The translations under genes and the position numbers were made by a program. The notes beneath the pieces were generated by a model, which was given only the letters and a program-made list of their open reading frames with translations, was not told where the DNA came from and searched no databases. A DNA stretch of 64,000 nt from Butyrivibrio sp. MC2013 (GTDB lineage Bacteria > Bacillota > Clostridia > Lachnospirales > Lachnospiraceae), in contig NZ_AUKE01000018.1 in NCBI RefSeq assembly GCF_000424585.1, forward strand, positions 1 to 64,000, written 5' to 3'. This document shows, piece after piece, positions 4,812 to 31,153 of this stretch; positions within the stretch are counted from its first letter, which is position 1; each line of letters opens with the position of its first letter.

Positions 4812-6767
4812 ATGGCCAGATGGATGGTTATGCGAAAGGGAGCAGATTTTCAGAAGATTGCCGCCGATCATCATATCAGTATGATCCTGGCAAGGCTTAT
4901 AAGAAATAGAAATGTACAGGGGGACCAGGAGATAGAGAGATTCCTGAGAGGGGATCTGTCTGATCTGAGGGATCCTCATACATTACCTGATATAGATAAA
5001 GCTGCTTCTATCATGAAATCGAAGATTGACTCCGGATCCAGGATCAGGATCATAGGAGATTATGATGTGGATGGGATCACCTCCACTTATATATTATTCA
5101 GCGGATTAAAGCTGGCAGCTCGTGGAACGGATACATATGTAGATTACAGGCTTCCTGACAGGATAACTGATGGCTATGGTCTCAATGAAAGGCTGGTAAG
5201 GGAAGCTGCCGATGACAATATCGATACTATAATGACCTGCGATAATGGTATTGCTGCTCATGAGCAGATAAGGCTTGCTTCAGAGCTGGGAATGACTGTA
5301 GTAGTAACGGATCATCATGAAGTTCCCCTTGATAAAGAGAGCGGAGAAGAGATCCTGCCTCCTGCAGAAGCTGTGGTGGATCCAAAGAGATCCTCCTGCC
5401 AGGCTCCCTTTAAGGAAATATGCGGCGGCTTTGTGGCTTATAAATTTCTCCAGGTGCTCTTTGAGCTTTATAAAACAGATGGAGTGATATTAGATGATGC
5501 TGTTATATCAGATGATGGAGCGATAATTAAAGAAGATACAGATGTAAAGTGTTCCAGAAGAGGCGCTATCAGCCAGGCTATGCTATCAGCATATATGGAT
5601 GAAGCTACTCAAATGGCCGCCCTTGCTACAGTATGTGACGTAATGCCTCTTGAAGATGAGAACAGGATCATTGTAAAAGAGGGCTTAAAGCGCATGGAGC
5701 ATACGGGCAATCTGGGCCTTAAATGTCTGATGGATGTCACGGGACTTGCTGACAAGAGTCTGACAGCTTATAGCCTTGGATTCATAATCGGACCATGTAT
5801 GAACGCTACCGGAAGACTGGATAACGCTACCAGAGCAGTGAGACTATTGGCAGGGGGTGATATGGCAGAAGCTGCGTCTATTGCCGTTGATCTCAAGGAA
5901 TTAAACGACAGCCGTAAGACCATGACCGTTGAAGGCGTCACAAAGGCTTCTGAGATGGTAGACTCCATGGATAAGATACCGGATATCCTGGTACTATACC
6001 TGCAGGATCTCCATGAATCCATTGCCGGAATAGTAGCAGGCAAGATCAAGGAGAAATACAACAGACCTACCATAGTCCTCACAGATGGTCAAAATGGAGC
6101 AAAGGGCAGCGGCAGATCCATTGAAGCTTATGATATGTTTACAGAGCTCTCAGCCTGTAAGGACCTTTTTGATAAATTTGGCGGACACAAGATGGCTGCC
6201 GGGCTCTCACTTCCCAAGGAAAATATAGGGGCCCTCTCTGAAAGGCTAAATGCAGCTTCTGTGCTTACAGAGGACGATTTTACACAGGTCCTGAGGCTGG
6301 ATATGGAGCTTCCCATTTCCTATGTGACCATGGATCTGGTCAGAGAACTGGAGAATCTTGAACCTTATGGCAATGGCAATGCCAAGCCCTGCTTTGCAGC
6401 CAGGAATATCAGGATACTATCCGGCAGGATCATGGGCAAGAACAGGAATTGCGGCAAGTATAACTGCCAGGATCCTGACGGCAACAGATTTGAGATGGTA
6501 TATTTTGGTGATATGCAAAGATGGCACGATTTCCTCATAAAGCGATATGGCACTGATGCCCCCGACAGGATCTATAATAATATGGGGAGAGGGGAATACA
6601 CAGATGCACTTCAGTGTCGTGAATACAAGGATGTATCCCGACACGATTTGAAGTGCAGGGATGCACTTCAGTGTCGTGATATTGTGATCAATATCGCCTA
6701 TTATCCTGATATTAACAGTTGGAACGGCAGAGAGAGTCTTCAGATCATCATGAATGATTATTGCTGA
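4812..6767 (+). CDS. recJ: Single-stranded-DNA-specific exonuclease RecJ, with a palindromic element inserted in frame
   Basis: A 651-residue DHH-family 5'-3' exonuclease of DNA repair and recombination. The DHH domain shows IGDYDVDGITSTYIL (residue about 80), TCDNGIAAHEQ and VVTDHHEVP (about 166); a DHHA1 nucleic-acid-binding segment with GSGRSIEAYDMF and FGGHKMAAG follows; an OB-type C-terminal domain ends with INSWNGRESLQIIM. The ATG at 4812 follows TAGGAG; a longer frame from 4674 would run through the secDF terminator. Residues 598-622 are encoded by a palindromic repeat that also occurs outside genes in this window (see 6603-6678). RecJ-like residues resume after it, so the insertion kept the frame. 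The gene ends 16 bp before the murE start. Confidence 0.93.
   Translation: MARWMVMRKGADFQKIAADHHISMILARLIRNRNVQGDQEIERFLRGDLSDLRDPHTLPDIDKAASIMKSKIDSGSRIRIIGDYDVDGITSTYILFSGLKLAARGTDTYVDYRLPDRITDGYGLNERLVREAADDNIDTIMTCDNGIAAHEQIRLASELGMTVVVTDHHEVPLDKESGEEILPPAEAVVDPKRSSCQAPFKEICGGFVAYKFLQVLFELYKTDGVILDDAVISDDGAIIKEDTDVKCSRRGAISQAMLSAYMDEATQMAALATVCDVMPLEDENRIIVKEGLKRMEHTGNLGLKCLMDVTGLADKSLTAYSLGFIIGPCMNATGRLDNATRAVRLLAGGDMAEAASIAVDLKELNDSRKTMTVEGVTKASEMVDSMDKIPDILVLYLQDLHESIAGIVAGKIKEKYNRPTIVLTDGQNGAKGSGRSIEAYDMFTELSACKDLFDKFGGHKMAAGLSLPKENIGALSERLNAASVLTEDDFTQVLRLDMELPISYVTMDLVRELENLEPYGNGNAKPCFAARNIRILSGRIMGKNRNCGKYNCQDPDGNRFEMVYFGDMQRWHDFLIKRYGTDAPDRIYNNMGRGEYTDALQCREYKDVSRHDLKCRDALQCRDIVINIAYYPDINSWNGRESLQIIMNDYC
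6603..6678 (+). repeat. 57-bp-period palindromic element inside recJ
   Basis: The 19-mer gatgcacttcagtgtcgtg occurs at 6603-6621 and again, exactly, at 6660-6678, so the period is 57 bp. Between the copies are a short hairpin (atacaaggatgtat) and a long hairpin whose arms are cgacacgatttgaagtgc and gcacttcagtgtcgtg. The unit corresponds, in reverse complement, to the elements at 24856-24994, and in the same sense to 31097-31153. Translated, it gives the 19-residue unit DALQCREYKDVSRHDLKCR followed by the start of a second copy (DALQCRD). Confidence 0.88.
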
Positions 6768-6783
6768 AGAATGGAGGGATATT

Positions 6784-8277
6784 ATGAAATTATCAGATCT
6801 TATCAGAAATCTGGATTGTAAGGTTTACGCAGGTTCTACAGGCTCAGAGGCAGATATATCTACTATAGAGATCAGTTCTGTGATCAATGACAGCAGGAAG
6901 GTCGGCGAGGGTTGCCTTTTCATATGCATAGAGGGTGCCAATTTTGATGGTCACAGTGCTGCCGGGGAGGCAGCAGCAAATGGCGCAGCAGCTCTCCTTG
7001 TGATGAAGAAATTGGAGAATATACCTGAAAATGTTGCTGTTGTCATGGTAGAGGATACAAGGAAGGCTATGGCCATTGTGTCAGCCCAGTGGTTTGGACA
7101 TCCTGCAGAGAGCCTTAAGACTGTGGGCATCACAGGCACTAAGGGTAAGACTACTACTACATATCTTATCAAGAGCATGCTGGAGAATGCAGGCCATAAG
7201 GTTGGCCTCATAGGTACTATTGAAGTTATAATAGGAGATGAGCACATTCCTGCTCTTAATACCACTCCTGAGTCCTATGATCTTCAGCAGTATATGAGAA
7301 GAATGGTAGACGCTGGATGTGACTGCCTTGTCATGGAGGTCTCATCCCAGGCGCTGATGCTTAGCAGGGTAGGAGGCTTTACTTTTGACATAGGTATCTT
7401 TACCAATATTGAGCCTGATCACATAGGTCCCAATGAGCACAAGGATTTTGAAGAATACATGCACTGCAAGGGACTGCTCTTTAAGCAGTGCAAGGTTGGA
7501 ATAGCAAATGCCGATGATGAGCATATGGAAAAGGTGCTGGAAGGTCACAGCTGCACATTGGAGACCTTTGGTTTTGGTGAAAAGGCAGATCTTAGAGCTA
7601 TCAATCTTGCCTATATCAGAAAGCCCGGTGAACTGGGCGTATTCTTTGATACCGAAGGAATATACGAGATGCATGCTCTGGTCAAGACTCCGGGTAAGTT
7701 CTCTGTATATAACGCCCTGTGTGCTATAGCTGTAGCAAGACATTTTGGCTGTGATGACAAGCAGATCGCAGATGCTCTGGCAGCTGCCAAGGTCAAGGGT
7801 CGTATAGAGATGGTCAAGGTGTCTGATGATTTTACTCTTATGATCGACTATGCTCACAACGCCATGGCGCTTAAGAGCCTTCTCATGAGCCTTAGAGATT
7901 ATCGTCCTAACCGCCTGGTAAGCCTCTTTGGCTGCGGCGGCAACAGATCCAAGCTTAGAAGATTTGAAATGGGTGAAGTCAGCGGCAGGCTCTCAGATCT
8001 GACTATCATTACTTCAGATAATCCCAGATTTGAAGATCCCATGGATATCATTCATGATATAGAGACCGGCATCAAAAAGACTGATGGCAAATACGTGGAG
8101 ATCCCAGACAGAAGAGAAGCAATAAAGTATGCCATTGAGAATGCCCAGCAGGGCGATATCATTGTACTTGCAGGCAAGGGCCATGAAGATTATCAGGAGA
8201 TAAAAGGCGAGAAATTCCCTATGGACGAGAGAGTCATTGTAGCTGATATCGTAAAGGAAATGGATCATAATGACTGA
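6784..8277 (+). CDS. murE: UDP-N-acetylmuramoyl-L-Ala-D-Glu:meso-diaminopimelate ligase
   Basis: A 497-residue cytoplasmic Mur ligase that adds the third stem-peptide residue to the peptidoglycan precursor. It has the N-terminal UDP-binding domain, the ATP loop GTKGKTTTTY (about residue 117), the central ALNTTPESYDL substrate region, and a C-terminal domain with TSDNPRFEDP (about 411). DNPR at this point is the known marker for meso-diaminopimelate rather than lysine. The ATG at 6784 is chosen because GGAGG precedes it by 6 bp; an earlier in-frame codon overlaps the end of recJ. It overlaps priA by 8 bp, so the two are probably translationally coupled. Confidence 0.95.
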   Translation: MKLSDLIRNLDCKVYAGSTGSEADISTIEISSVINDSRKVGEGCLFICIEGANFDGHSAAGEAAANGAAALLVMKKLENIPENVAVVMVEDTRKAMAIVSAQWFGHPAESLKTVGITGTKGKTTTTYLIKSMLENAGHKVGLIGTIEVIIGDEHIPALNTTPESYDLQQYMRRMVDAGCDCLVMEVSSQALMLSRVGGFTFDIGIFTNIEPDHIGPNEHKDFEEYMHCKGLLFKQCKVGIANADDEHMEKVLEGHSCTLETFGFGEKADLRAINLAYIRKPGELGVFFDTEGIYEMHALVKTPGKFSVYNALCAIAVARHFGCDDKQIADALAAAKVKGRIEMVKVSDDFTLMIDYAHNAMALKSLLMSLRDYRPNRLVSLFGCGGNRSKLRRFEMGEVSGRLSDLTIITSDNPRFEDPMDIIHDIETGIKKTDGKYVEIPDRREAIKYAIENAQQGDIIVLAGKGHEDYQEIKGEKFPMDERVIVADIVKEMDHND

Positions 8278-23335: not shown

Positions 23336-24847
23336 ATGGTTACTAATGATGAGGGAATCGTTCGTTTTAAACACAATATTATGGAAGAGGTATGCCGCCT
23401 TGCATGGGCAGGCAATCTTAATGAAGAGAGCAAAAATGAACTGGTGATGAAGACCATTCCCGGTCCCAAGCCTATGTTCAGATGCTGTATATATAAGGAA
23501 AGAGAGATAGTAAGAGAGAGGATCCGTCTGGCTTGTGCCCAGAATACCTCGGATAATGAGGGCTCCAAAAACGTGGTACAGGTTATAGGTGCGGCCTGTG
23601 ATGAATGTCCTCTTTCTGCATATTCTGTTACAGACAACTGCAGATTCTGTATGGGCAAGGCCTGTCTGAATTCCTGCAAATTCGGTGCTATAAGCCCCGG
23701 CGAAGTAAGAATGCATATCGATCCTCAGAAGTGTAAGGAATGTGGTATGTGCTCCAGGGCATGTCCCTACAGTGCTATAGTGCATCTCCAGAGACCTTGC
23801 AAAAAGGTATGTCCTGTAGGTGCTATCACCTATGATGAGAATGGTCTGTGCAAGATTGATGAGAGCAAGTGCATCAACTGCGGACACTGTATACATTCAT
23901 GTCCTTTCGGTGCTATTGGTTCCAAGACATATCTGGTACCTATCATCGAGGCTATATTGGCAGGCAAAGAAGTGATCGCTATGGTGGCGCCTGCTATTGA
24001 AGGTCAGTTTGGTGAAAATATTGATATGGCTGCACTGCGTGCTGCTTTTAAGAAGCTGGGCTTTGCGGATATGGTAGAAGTAGGTCTGGGCGGTGATATG
24101 ACAGCCGCTTATGAATCTCTGGAGTGGTCAGAGGCCCTGGAAGAGGGACGTAAGATGACTACTTCCTGCTGTCCTGCCTTTATTAACATGCTCAGAAAGC
24201 ACTTCCCTGAACAGTTTGAAGCAAATATGTCATCTACAGTATCTCCCATGTGCGCTGTATCCAGATATCTCAAGCTCACACATCCCGGATGTGTGACAGT
24301 CTTTGTAGGTCCCTGCATTGCAAAGAAGTCTGAGGCTCAGGACAAATCTGTTCCGGATAATGCAGATTATGTTATTACCTTCGGTGAGCTGGGAGCCTTC
24401 TTCAGATCCAAGGATATCAAGCTGGAGCCTGTGGAAGATAGCTATCAGGAAGCTTCAGCCTTTGGTAAAAAGTTTGCTTCTTCCGGCGGTGTGGCAGCTG
24501 CAGTTCTGGAGTGCATTAGGGAAAGAGGCGGCAACGCTGATGATATCAAGCTGTATAAGGCTGCAGGCGGAGATGATTGCAGAAGGACGCTTCTCATGCT
24601 CAAGGCAGGCAAGTTTACAGATGATTTCATCGAGGGTATGGTATGTCCCGGCGGCTGTGTAGGTGGCCCTTCCAAGAGAAAGACTGAGCAGGAGATCACT
24701 AAAGCCAGGAATAACCTCCTTGCCAAGGCTGATGATCGTAAGATCATAGAGAATCTGAGAGATTACCCTATGGATCAGTTCTCCATGCACAGAGATGGCA
24801 GCAATGATCTGGAAATGACAAAGAGGGTAATGAATACCGCGGAATGA
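23336..24847 (+). CDS. [FeFe] hydrogenase, group B (monomeric)
   Basis: A 503-residue iron-sulfur protein. An N-terminal segment with cysteines (CDECP, CRFCMGKACLNSC) is followed by two ferredoxin-type clusters (CKECGMCSRACPYS and CINCGHCIHSCPFG, residues about 135-200). The hydrogenase domain carries L1 TSCCPAF, a cysteine in VSPMCAVSRY, L2 GPCIAKKSEA and L3 MVCPGGCVGGP, giving all four H-cluster ligands and the proton-relay cysteine. These loops fit the poorly characterised group B enzymes rather than the bifurcating HydABC type. GAGGAGG precedes the ATG. No maturase (hydE/F/G) or electron-transfer subunit is adjacent. Confidence 0.9.
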   Translation: MVTNDEGIVRFKHNIMEEVCRLAWAGNLNEESKNELVMKTIPGPKPMFRCCIYKEREIVRERIRLACAQNTSDNEGSKNVVQVIGAACDECPLSAYSVTDNCRFCMGKACLNSCKFGAISPGEVRMHIDPQKCKECGMCSRACPYSAIVHLQRPCKKVCPVGAITYDENGLCKIDESKCINCGHCIHSCPFGAIGSKTYLVPIIEAILAGKEVIAMVAPAIEGQFGENIDMAALRAAFKKLGFADMVEVGLGGDMTAAYESLEWSEALEEGRKMTTSCCPAFINMLRKHFPEQFEANMSSTVSPMCAVSRYLKLTHPGCVTVFVGPCIAKKSEAQDKSVPDNADYVITFGELGAFFRSKDIKLEPVEDSYQEASAFGKKFASSGGVAAAVLECIRERGGNADDIKLYKAAGGDDCRRTLLMLKAGKFTDDFIEGMVCPGGCVGGPSKRKTEQEITKARNNLLAKADDRKIIENLRDYPMDQFSMHRDGSNDLEMTKRVMNTAE

Positions 24848-24855
24848 GAATGAAT

Positions 24856-24994
24856 GACATAGAAATGCATCCATGCACTTCTGAACATGTCAAAATACAT
24901 CCCTGTATATGACATAGAACTGCATCCATGCAGTTCTAAACATGTCGTGATATATCCGTATATCATGACATAGAAGTGCATCCATGCACTTCTT
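24856..24994 (+). repeat. Tandem array of the 55-57-bp double-hairpin element (three units)
   Basis: gacat-starting units at 24856, 24911 and 24967 (periods 55 and 56). Each long hairpin has the form gacatagaaNtgcat-cc-atgcaNttct...catgtc. The variable pair is A/C, C/G and G/C in units 1-3, so units 2 and 3 differ by a compensated base pair. Short hairpins (atacatccctgtat, atatatccgtatat) join them; the third unit is cut after ttctta. The array lies between the hydrogenase stop and its terminator. Confidence 0.88.
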
Positions 24995-30366: not shown

Positions 30367-30562
30367 ATATTATGGCTGTTGCCACATTTATACGTGGCAA
30401 CAGCTATATTATGAGGTACTAACGGATTGTTCCGTTTCTTCGAAACTCTCACAATCCTAAAACATTCGCAAATCCGCACTACGTGCTACTTTGCTCATGT
30501 TTTGTGGGTCATAAATTCATATTCGATTTCGAGCAAGCTCGAATCGAAATGACTTTTGACCC
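30367..30562. repeat. Cluster of four hairpins in the gap upstream of the HerA-like gene
   Basis: The 377-bp gap contains, in series: tggctgttgccac / gtggcaacagcta (30371-30403); ggattgt..gtttc / gaaac..acaatcc (about 30424-30457); aaaacat..gcaaa..gcac / gtgc..tttgc..atgtttt (about 30459-30503); and gggtca..cgatttcgagc / gctcgaatcg..gaccc (about 30506-30562). The nested arms with unpaired bulges look like an evolved folded element rather than one terminator. No other copy was seen in the window. No protein is encoded there. Confidence 0.7.
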
Positions 30563-30645
30563 TTACGTCATATTATAGCATATAACAGGTGCGATAAATG
30601 ATTGACTGTTATATCGGATAAATATAGATATCATTAATTACTCTT

Positions 30646-31096: not shown

Positions 31097-31153
31097 AATA
31101 CAAGGATGTATTTCGACATGCTCAGAAGTGCAGGTATGCACTTCTATGTCGTG
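31097..31153 (+). repeat. Single copy of the 55-57-bp double-hairpin element
   Basis: A short hairpin (aatacaaggatgtatt) is followed by a long one with arms cgacatg..cagaagtgca and tgcacttctatgtcg. It aligns base for base with the unit inside recJ, and with the reverse complement of the array at 24856-24994. It lies 100 bp before the hook-type gene, in its probable leader. Confidence 0.85.

Follow-up and report, generated by a model that had tools for sequence, protein, structure and literature searches.

We analysed a 64,000-nucleotide stretch of the genome of Butyrivibrio sp. MC2013 (the host; contig NZ_AUKE01000018.1, positions 1 to 64,000 of the forward strand, referred to here as the window), in which the gene recJ carries, in frame, a copy of a short palindromic repeat that lies mostly between genes. 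The repeat is a unit of ~57 bp made of a hairpin B followed by a hairpin A, which is longer and has two stems, outer and inner; ANGGAT stands in both loops on one strand (the GGA strand, its complement being the TCC strand), and units repeat head-to-tail in tandem arrays. We describe the recJ insert and its reading frame, the repeat family and the clade that carries it, its orientation bias behind stop codons, and the differing numbers of units at shared sites. The most probable explanation is a non-autonomous dispersed hairpin DNA element, of the same sort as repetitive extragenic palindromic sequences (REPs) and Rickettsia palindromic elements (RPEs), that was captured in recJ. The features of this gene are as follows.

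Positions 4812 to 6767, plus strand: recJ coding sequence, 651 amino acids with DHH (residues 77-218), DHHA1 (392-481) and RecJ_OB (496-649) domains, from translation and Pfam.
Positions 6594 to 6677, plus strand: insert that the RecJ of relatives lacks, 81-84 bp or 27-28 codons (EYTDALQCREYKDVSRHDLKCRDALQCR), from alignments to insert-free relatives; the left edge is ambiguous by one codon (6594 or 6597) and the right edge is 6677.
Positions 6594 to 6620, plus strand: probable truncated first unit of 27 bp, the start of hairpin B fused to the 3' half of hairpin A, as suggested by the sequence and by direct repeats 57 bp apart.
Positions 6621 to 6677, plus strand: complete 57-bp unit, its GGA strand being the coding strand; the covariance-model match spans 6638-6698 (E 2.6e-7).
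Positions 6623 to 6636, plus strand: hairpin B of this unit, ATACA-AGGA-TGTAT, with a stem that covaries in the family (helix 1).
Positions 6639 to 6676, plus strand: hairpin A of this unit, with outer stem CGACAC/GTGTCG and inner stem GAAGTGCA-GGGA-TGCACTTC, which covary in the family (helices 2 and 3).

The 20-bp stretch GATGCACTTCAGTGTCGTGA occurs twice in recJ, identical at 6603-6622 and 6660-6679 and exactly 57 bp apart, the period given in a preliminary description of this DNA. That description had placed the repeat at 6603-6678, beginning at residue 598; the repeat is indeed located there, and the residue number is right given a recJ start at the ATG at 4812, but the insert is larger, running from 6594 or 6597 to 6677. 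The reading frame is kept through the insert and through the residues INSWNGRESL behind it to the stop at 6767, likewise as described.

Close relatives had been named as the place to look for the same residues without the repeat, and the insert is absent from RecJ in all 21 same-genus species whose C-termini were viewed in sequence alignments. This set comprises 17 same-genus species, G074, and three further carriers of the element (G058, G076 and G077), which bear it at other sites; the G058 chain reads ...YNNSVNEDIVLNIAYYPDINSW... and the host chain ...YNNMGRGEYTDALQCREYKDVSRHDLKCRDALQCRDIVINIAYYPDINSW.... The insert falls inside the RecJ_OB domain, where RecJ sequence differs among relatives, and directly precedes a stretch that aligns with the solved RecJ 8y30, an alignment too weak to serve as sole support. 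Such a variable stretch is compatible with an exposed loop, and the insert may form one at the protein surface. The predicted peptide would be made as part of RecJ, and RecJ would probably still function with it.

That the recJ segment and the intergenic copies are one repeat, as first proposed, is borne out by matches far beyond chance. The 60-mer at 6620-6679 gave 66 BLAST matches at E<=10 in the host genome (best non-self match, 2.3e-16), and the A-hairpin pattern GAAGTGCANNNATGCACTTC, with <=2 mismatches allowed, gave 80 forward and 83 reverse matches compared with 0 and 0 for a reversed control; as the pattern is nearly palindromic, a single site is often scored on both strands. The covariance model R1, built from 18 units, yielded at least 107 matches at E<=1 when 150 of 2550 host candidates were scored. 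From these, 88 matches were kept (E<=0.01 minus two antisense shadows, plus two at E ~0.05), forming 65 arrays, five of which lie within repeats resembling miniature inverted-repeat transposable elements (MITEs). Across the four carrier genomes of the genus, 164 of 170 arrays are outside script-predicted genes. Two intergenic copies lie in the window.

Positions 24855 to 24993, minus strand: array between genes that holds three A hairpins; the minus strand is its GGA strand and the message strand is TCC; it lies 7 nt past the stop of the open reading frame (ORF) at 23336-24847.
Positions 31098 to 31152, plus strand: one B+A unit between genes, with the plus strand as its GGA strand and an A loop of GGTA.

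Hairpin centres in the first of these (24.86-24.99 kb) are spaced 55 and 56 bp apart, in agreement with the intergenic periods already reported. The 57-bp period had been hinted to be peculiar to recJ, which did not hold up: among 65 neighbour spacings in the four genomes, 25 are also 57 bp, two are 30 bp, and the others are 55, 56, 58 or 59 bp. Because 57 bp is common across arrays, the recJ period need not reflect selection for frame. No Rfam family matched the element at the gathering threshold in the window, where the sole Rfam match was Clostridiales-1 RNA (RF01699) at 30412-30570 on the minus strand (110.5 bits).

The stems of the unit covary almost solely via Watson-Crick exchange. In an alignment of 49 rows (out of 80 units picked) from the host, G058 and one metagenome-assembled genome (MAG) record, 959 paired cells contained 153 double-sided changes that still pair, 2 one-sided changes that still pair, 12 unpaired cells and 5 wobble pairs. 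Double changes occurred at 15 of 20 base pairs, and the covariation score was reached in 0 of 500 shuffles. Rows had been selected by a stem criterion accepting G-T, which inflates the 98.7% of cells that are paired and conceals broken stems, though not wobble pairs. GGA is retained in both loops of this alignment despite the change in the stems. Counts of G-T versus A-C were without strand preference (12 vs 15 in 73 host units; 2 vs 3 in 47 units of G058), and an earlier tally, in which G-T prevailed on the GGA strand, was discarded because its selection rule rewarded G-T. The TCC strand typically carries NNNCATAG ahead of the inner stem, mostly paired within the outer stem. When the last 57 bp of each host array were read as a closed loop, one TCC-strand frame was open in 53 of 57 arrays and the GGA-strand frames in 33, 27 and 35. 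An extra hairpin without a GGA loop (arms GAGTTTC / GAAACTC, and a variant) was also seen within some arrays (L317, L369 and L178).

The element has a narrow distribution among relatives. A second model, R2, found it in four of 79 genomes of the genus (the host, G058, G076 and G077), with at least 66-70 matches each, these counts being lower bounds from 68 candidates scored per genome under strict filters; with the same filters there was no match in the remaining 75. Model R1 gave no match in the other 40 of 41 relatives, a set that lies apart from G058, G076 and G077, and the pattern TACANGGATGTA matched 54, 46 and 64 times in the host, G058 and G076 and <=7 times in each of the other 58 of 61 genomes. 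A survey of 392 genomes of the order, which scored 13 candidates per genome and may have let weak carriers escape, returned matches in three: the host, G077, and G365, a member of another genus of the family with 3 matches. The four carriers group as a single clade (support 99/95) in a 33-row RecJ tree. Lone A-type hairpins were also noted in two contigs, one from an Erysipelotrichaceae MAG and one viral (L155 and L157).

Placement relative to genes was read from a structural scan of loci (58 from the host, 63 from G058, 20 from G077, 33 from G076 and 3 from G365), which still includes chance hairpins (L009 and L029 at least) and copies within MITE-like elements. Arrays outside predicted genes numbered 52, 56, 21 and 35 in the host, G058, G077 and G076, respectively. 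In the same order, those <=30 nt behind a stop codon or overlapping it have TCC on the message in 30, 21, 10 and 21 cases and GGA in 0, 2, 0 and 0, a single orientation (TCC-sense) in 82 of 84; <=30 nt before a start codon, the counts are 3, 0, 1 and 0 for TCC and 1, 1, 0 and 1 for GGA. A TCC-sense gene lies upstream of 132 arrays, of which 19 overlapped the stop, 51 lay at 0-5 nt, 6 at 6-15 nt, 7 at 16-40 nt and 49 beyond, sites common to G058, G076 and G077 entering these counts more than once. GGA-sense arrays with a gene on that side lie within 30 nt in 2 cases and beyond it in 38, and orientation is mixed farther from stops. The array begins 0-5 nt past the stop in 51 of 76 close arrays, preceded by TAA in 39, TGA in 22 and TAG in 15 of the 76, and this stop-abutting placement persists where the next gene is 100-350 nt distant. 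The recJ copy, which is GGA-sense, has the less common orientation relative to arrays behind stops.

On contig C1 of G058 (55 arrays), close TCC-sense arrays lie behind leading-strand genes in 19 cases and behind a lagging-strand gene in 1, the other arrays dividing 21 to 14; chromosome halves were assigned by GC skew of the fetched pieces with the boundary set at 2.35 Mb. As the close class is TCC-sense by definition, this test of replication versus transcription as the cause of the orientation hangs on one lagging-strand case. One G076 gene appears to have its final codons supplanted by the element, which is absent from the stop of the G058 counterpart (L344 and L174). A gene of 111 amino acids has arrays directly past its stop in G058 and G077, and the host gene (L090) has no unit in the ~35 nt examined past its stop.

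Besides recJ, other genes contain copies, and arrays were flagged inside predicted genes five times in the host, recJ among them, and once in G058. A host GGDEF protein (L026) has VYRDVCRHDQKCTDALLCREYNN at residues 144-166, similar to the RecJ insert peptide and in the same frame and strand; we accept it as a putative in-gene insert because Pfam splits its GGDEF domain into two stretches, the best at 36-137. The G058 copy is GGA-sense, at residues 490-512 of a GH43 protein (L203) between GH43 (171-450) and GH43_C2 (514-681), and is likely a genuine insert. The copy in L014 forms a C-terminal tail, and the in-gene array L009 was set aside as probably a chance hairpin. Opposite-sense copies in L021 (a 101-amino-acid ORF without a Pfam match) and in L115 (a 695-amino-acid ORF with nothing above the Pfam cut-off, from the 65-array covariance-model set and apart from the flagged six) are weak candidates in ORFs of uncertain reality.

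The arrays also differ between genomes at the same place. At sites shared by G058 and G076, unit number differs (2 vs 3, 1 vs 3 and 1 vs 2), as do the letters. We compared 38 host genes that an array closely follows or overlaps with 32 similarly placed genes retrieved from G058; a clear counterpart (87% identical) exists for one of the 38, which fits separate gains. At a shared site behind a 98%-identical gene, outer-stem letters differ between L200 (G058), L352 (G076) and L327 (G077). Units are further carried inside larger repeats. Four MITE-like host elements of 252-265 bp, 99.6-100% identical, hold one unit each (L105-L108, on contigs C3, C3, C7 and C12), and related, more diverged copies occur at L104 on contig C2. 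G058 has one larger repeat family with one unit per copy (L173, L179, L188, L190, L192 and L195) and a second of the same kind (L300-L303, L305, L306, L309, L310 and L312).

On the preferred reading of a captured dispersed DNA element, the element would have spread within one clade of the genus, its units multiplying in tandem, and once the host species had separated from the relatives that carry the element, a full unit and a truncated one would have entered recJ, in the strand reversed relative to the common orientation. Given the open frame on the strand of the recJ copy, the total length in a multiple of three and the variable OB-domain stretch, RecJ could bear the 27-28 extra residues. 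Movement may take place as single-stranded hairpin DNA via an enzyme acting in trans. Several observations weigh against this history. Some array sites are common to G058, G076 and G077, so placement could be partly inherited, and the arrays of G365 <=30 nt behind a stop (1 TCC-sense, 2 GGA-sense) run opposite to the bias. No dedicated transposase stood out: Y1 transposases are present in 20 of 20 genus genomes tested, whether or not the element is, and no unit was found beside Y1 genes in 9 loci scanned (4 of 4 in the host, two of which end at contig ends, and 5 of 14 in G058, G076 and G077). A target-site duplication is not readable at recJ because relatives are too diverged there.

The orientation bias is what would be expected if the element were a working RNA structure at the message 3' end that shields the upstream message or affects ribosomes as they reach the stop codon, with the recJ copy a stray. 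We regard this as unlikely. The 82 of 84 arrays in one orientation near stops, mixed farther off, speak for it, as do the start of 51 of 76 close arrays within 0-5 nt even with the next gene 100-350 nt away and the single lagging-strand case among 20 close TCC-sense arrays of G058, the one hint that orientation follows the gene and not replication. A conserved RNA, however, is expected to show more wobble pairs than 5 in 959 cells, the G-T and A-C counts have no strand preference, one of 38 host sites is common to G058, and a terminating ribosome should melt a hairpin 1-3 nt behind the stop. The same close placement could instead mean that the placement process senses the stop itself, either because insertion is tied to translation termination or because hairpins that abut the stop are strongly selected, and the recJ copy would be off-target; this is suggested by the piling up of arrays at 0-5 nt (51 of 132) and over the stop (19), where 6-15 nt has 6 and 16-40 nt has 7, in four genomes and with the strand almost always the same, and we think it quite improbable.

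The constancy of GGA in both loops while the stems vary, and the presence of one csrA in the host genome, would suit ANGGAT loops that are CsrA-binding sites, the arrays serving as CsrA sponges or message control sites; hairpin B fits what we take to be the CsrA consensus, RUACARGGAUGU. The recJ copy is itself GGA-sense, but in 82 of the 84 arrays behind stops GGA lies on the antisense strand and the upstream message carries TCC, so the sponge was set aside, and a role in CsrA binding has a very slim chance. A local duplication in recJ unrelated to the intergenic copies could be imagined from the 20-bp pair, the main repeat within 6500-6800, but is refuted by the genome-wide matches with the same two-hairpin order and by the similar GGDEF-protein peptide.

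The dispersed-element reading places the family among known systems. The preliminary description had likened it to the Rickettsia elements, an apt parallel, and had known of no Lachnospiraceae precedent; in the open-access literature searched we recognised no description of elements of this kind from Butyrivibrio or Lachnospiraceae. RPEs, as described in PMC2229807, are palindromic repeats found between genes and fused in frame within conserved protein genes, and the Butyrivibrio repeat is likewise intergenic and in frame in the conserved recJ, whose orthologues in the 21 species viewed lack the insert. The likeness is one of layout; RPEs measure 105-146 bp, and the Butyrivibrio unit ~57 bp in a distant phylum. 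REPs are closer still. According to PMC3733652, they lie <20 bp from 3' ends, provide TAG stops, and also occur within ORFs, many of them DNA synthesis and repair genes, where more than half of the inserts are dimers or groups and encode 20-30 residues; the words Firmicutes, Clostridium, Clostridia and Bacilli are missing from that text. Like REPs, the Butyrivibrio element consists of high-copy short palindromes that are mostly intergenic (65 arrays in the host). It differs from the REPs of that account in being a two-hairpin unit in head-to-tail arrays, and from the GTAG/CGTC super-families in having, instead of an unpaired GTAG or CGTC end tag, a CATAG that is mostly paired.

With MITEs the element shares its non-autonomous nature, four host MITE-like elements enclosing one unit each, but for the unit itself we could not define terminal inverted repeats or a target duplication. 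With REP-associated tyrosine transposase (RAYT) and IS200-IS605-like systems, as far as covered in PMC2817692, it shares hairpin repeats, compensatory stem changes, tandem modules and a host that has Y1 transposases; it differs in that no unit adjoins a Y1 gene in the 9 loci scanned. The mode of action, REP- or RPE-like with repeats within DNA-repair genes, is already known from these sources, and the Butyrivibrio family fits that pattern. With it, the range of protein-coding palindromic repeats widens to Butyrivibrio, where the gene that hosts one encodes a conserved DNA-repair enzyme; in four related genomes a single element can be traced as it spreads, grows in tandem and is captured by coding sequence, and its tight, oriented placement behind stops makes it possible to test how repeats of this sort come to occupy or retain particular sites. 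Within the literature covered, the traits that distinguish it are the two-hairpin unit, the fixed GGA loops, the near-pure Watson-Crick exchange in the stems and the placement 0-5 nt behind stops.
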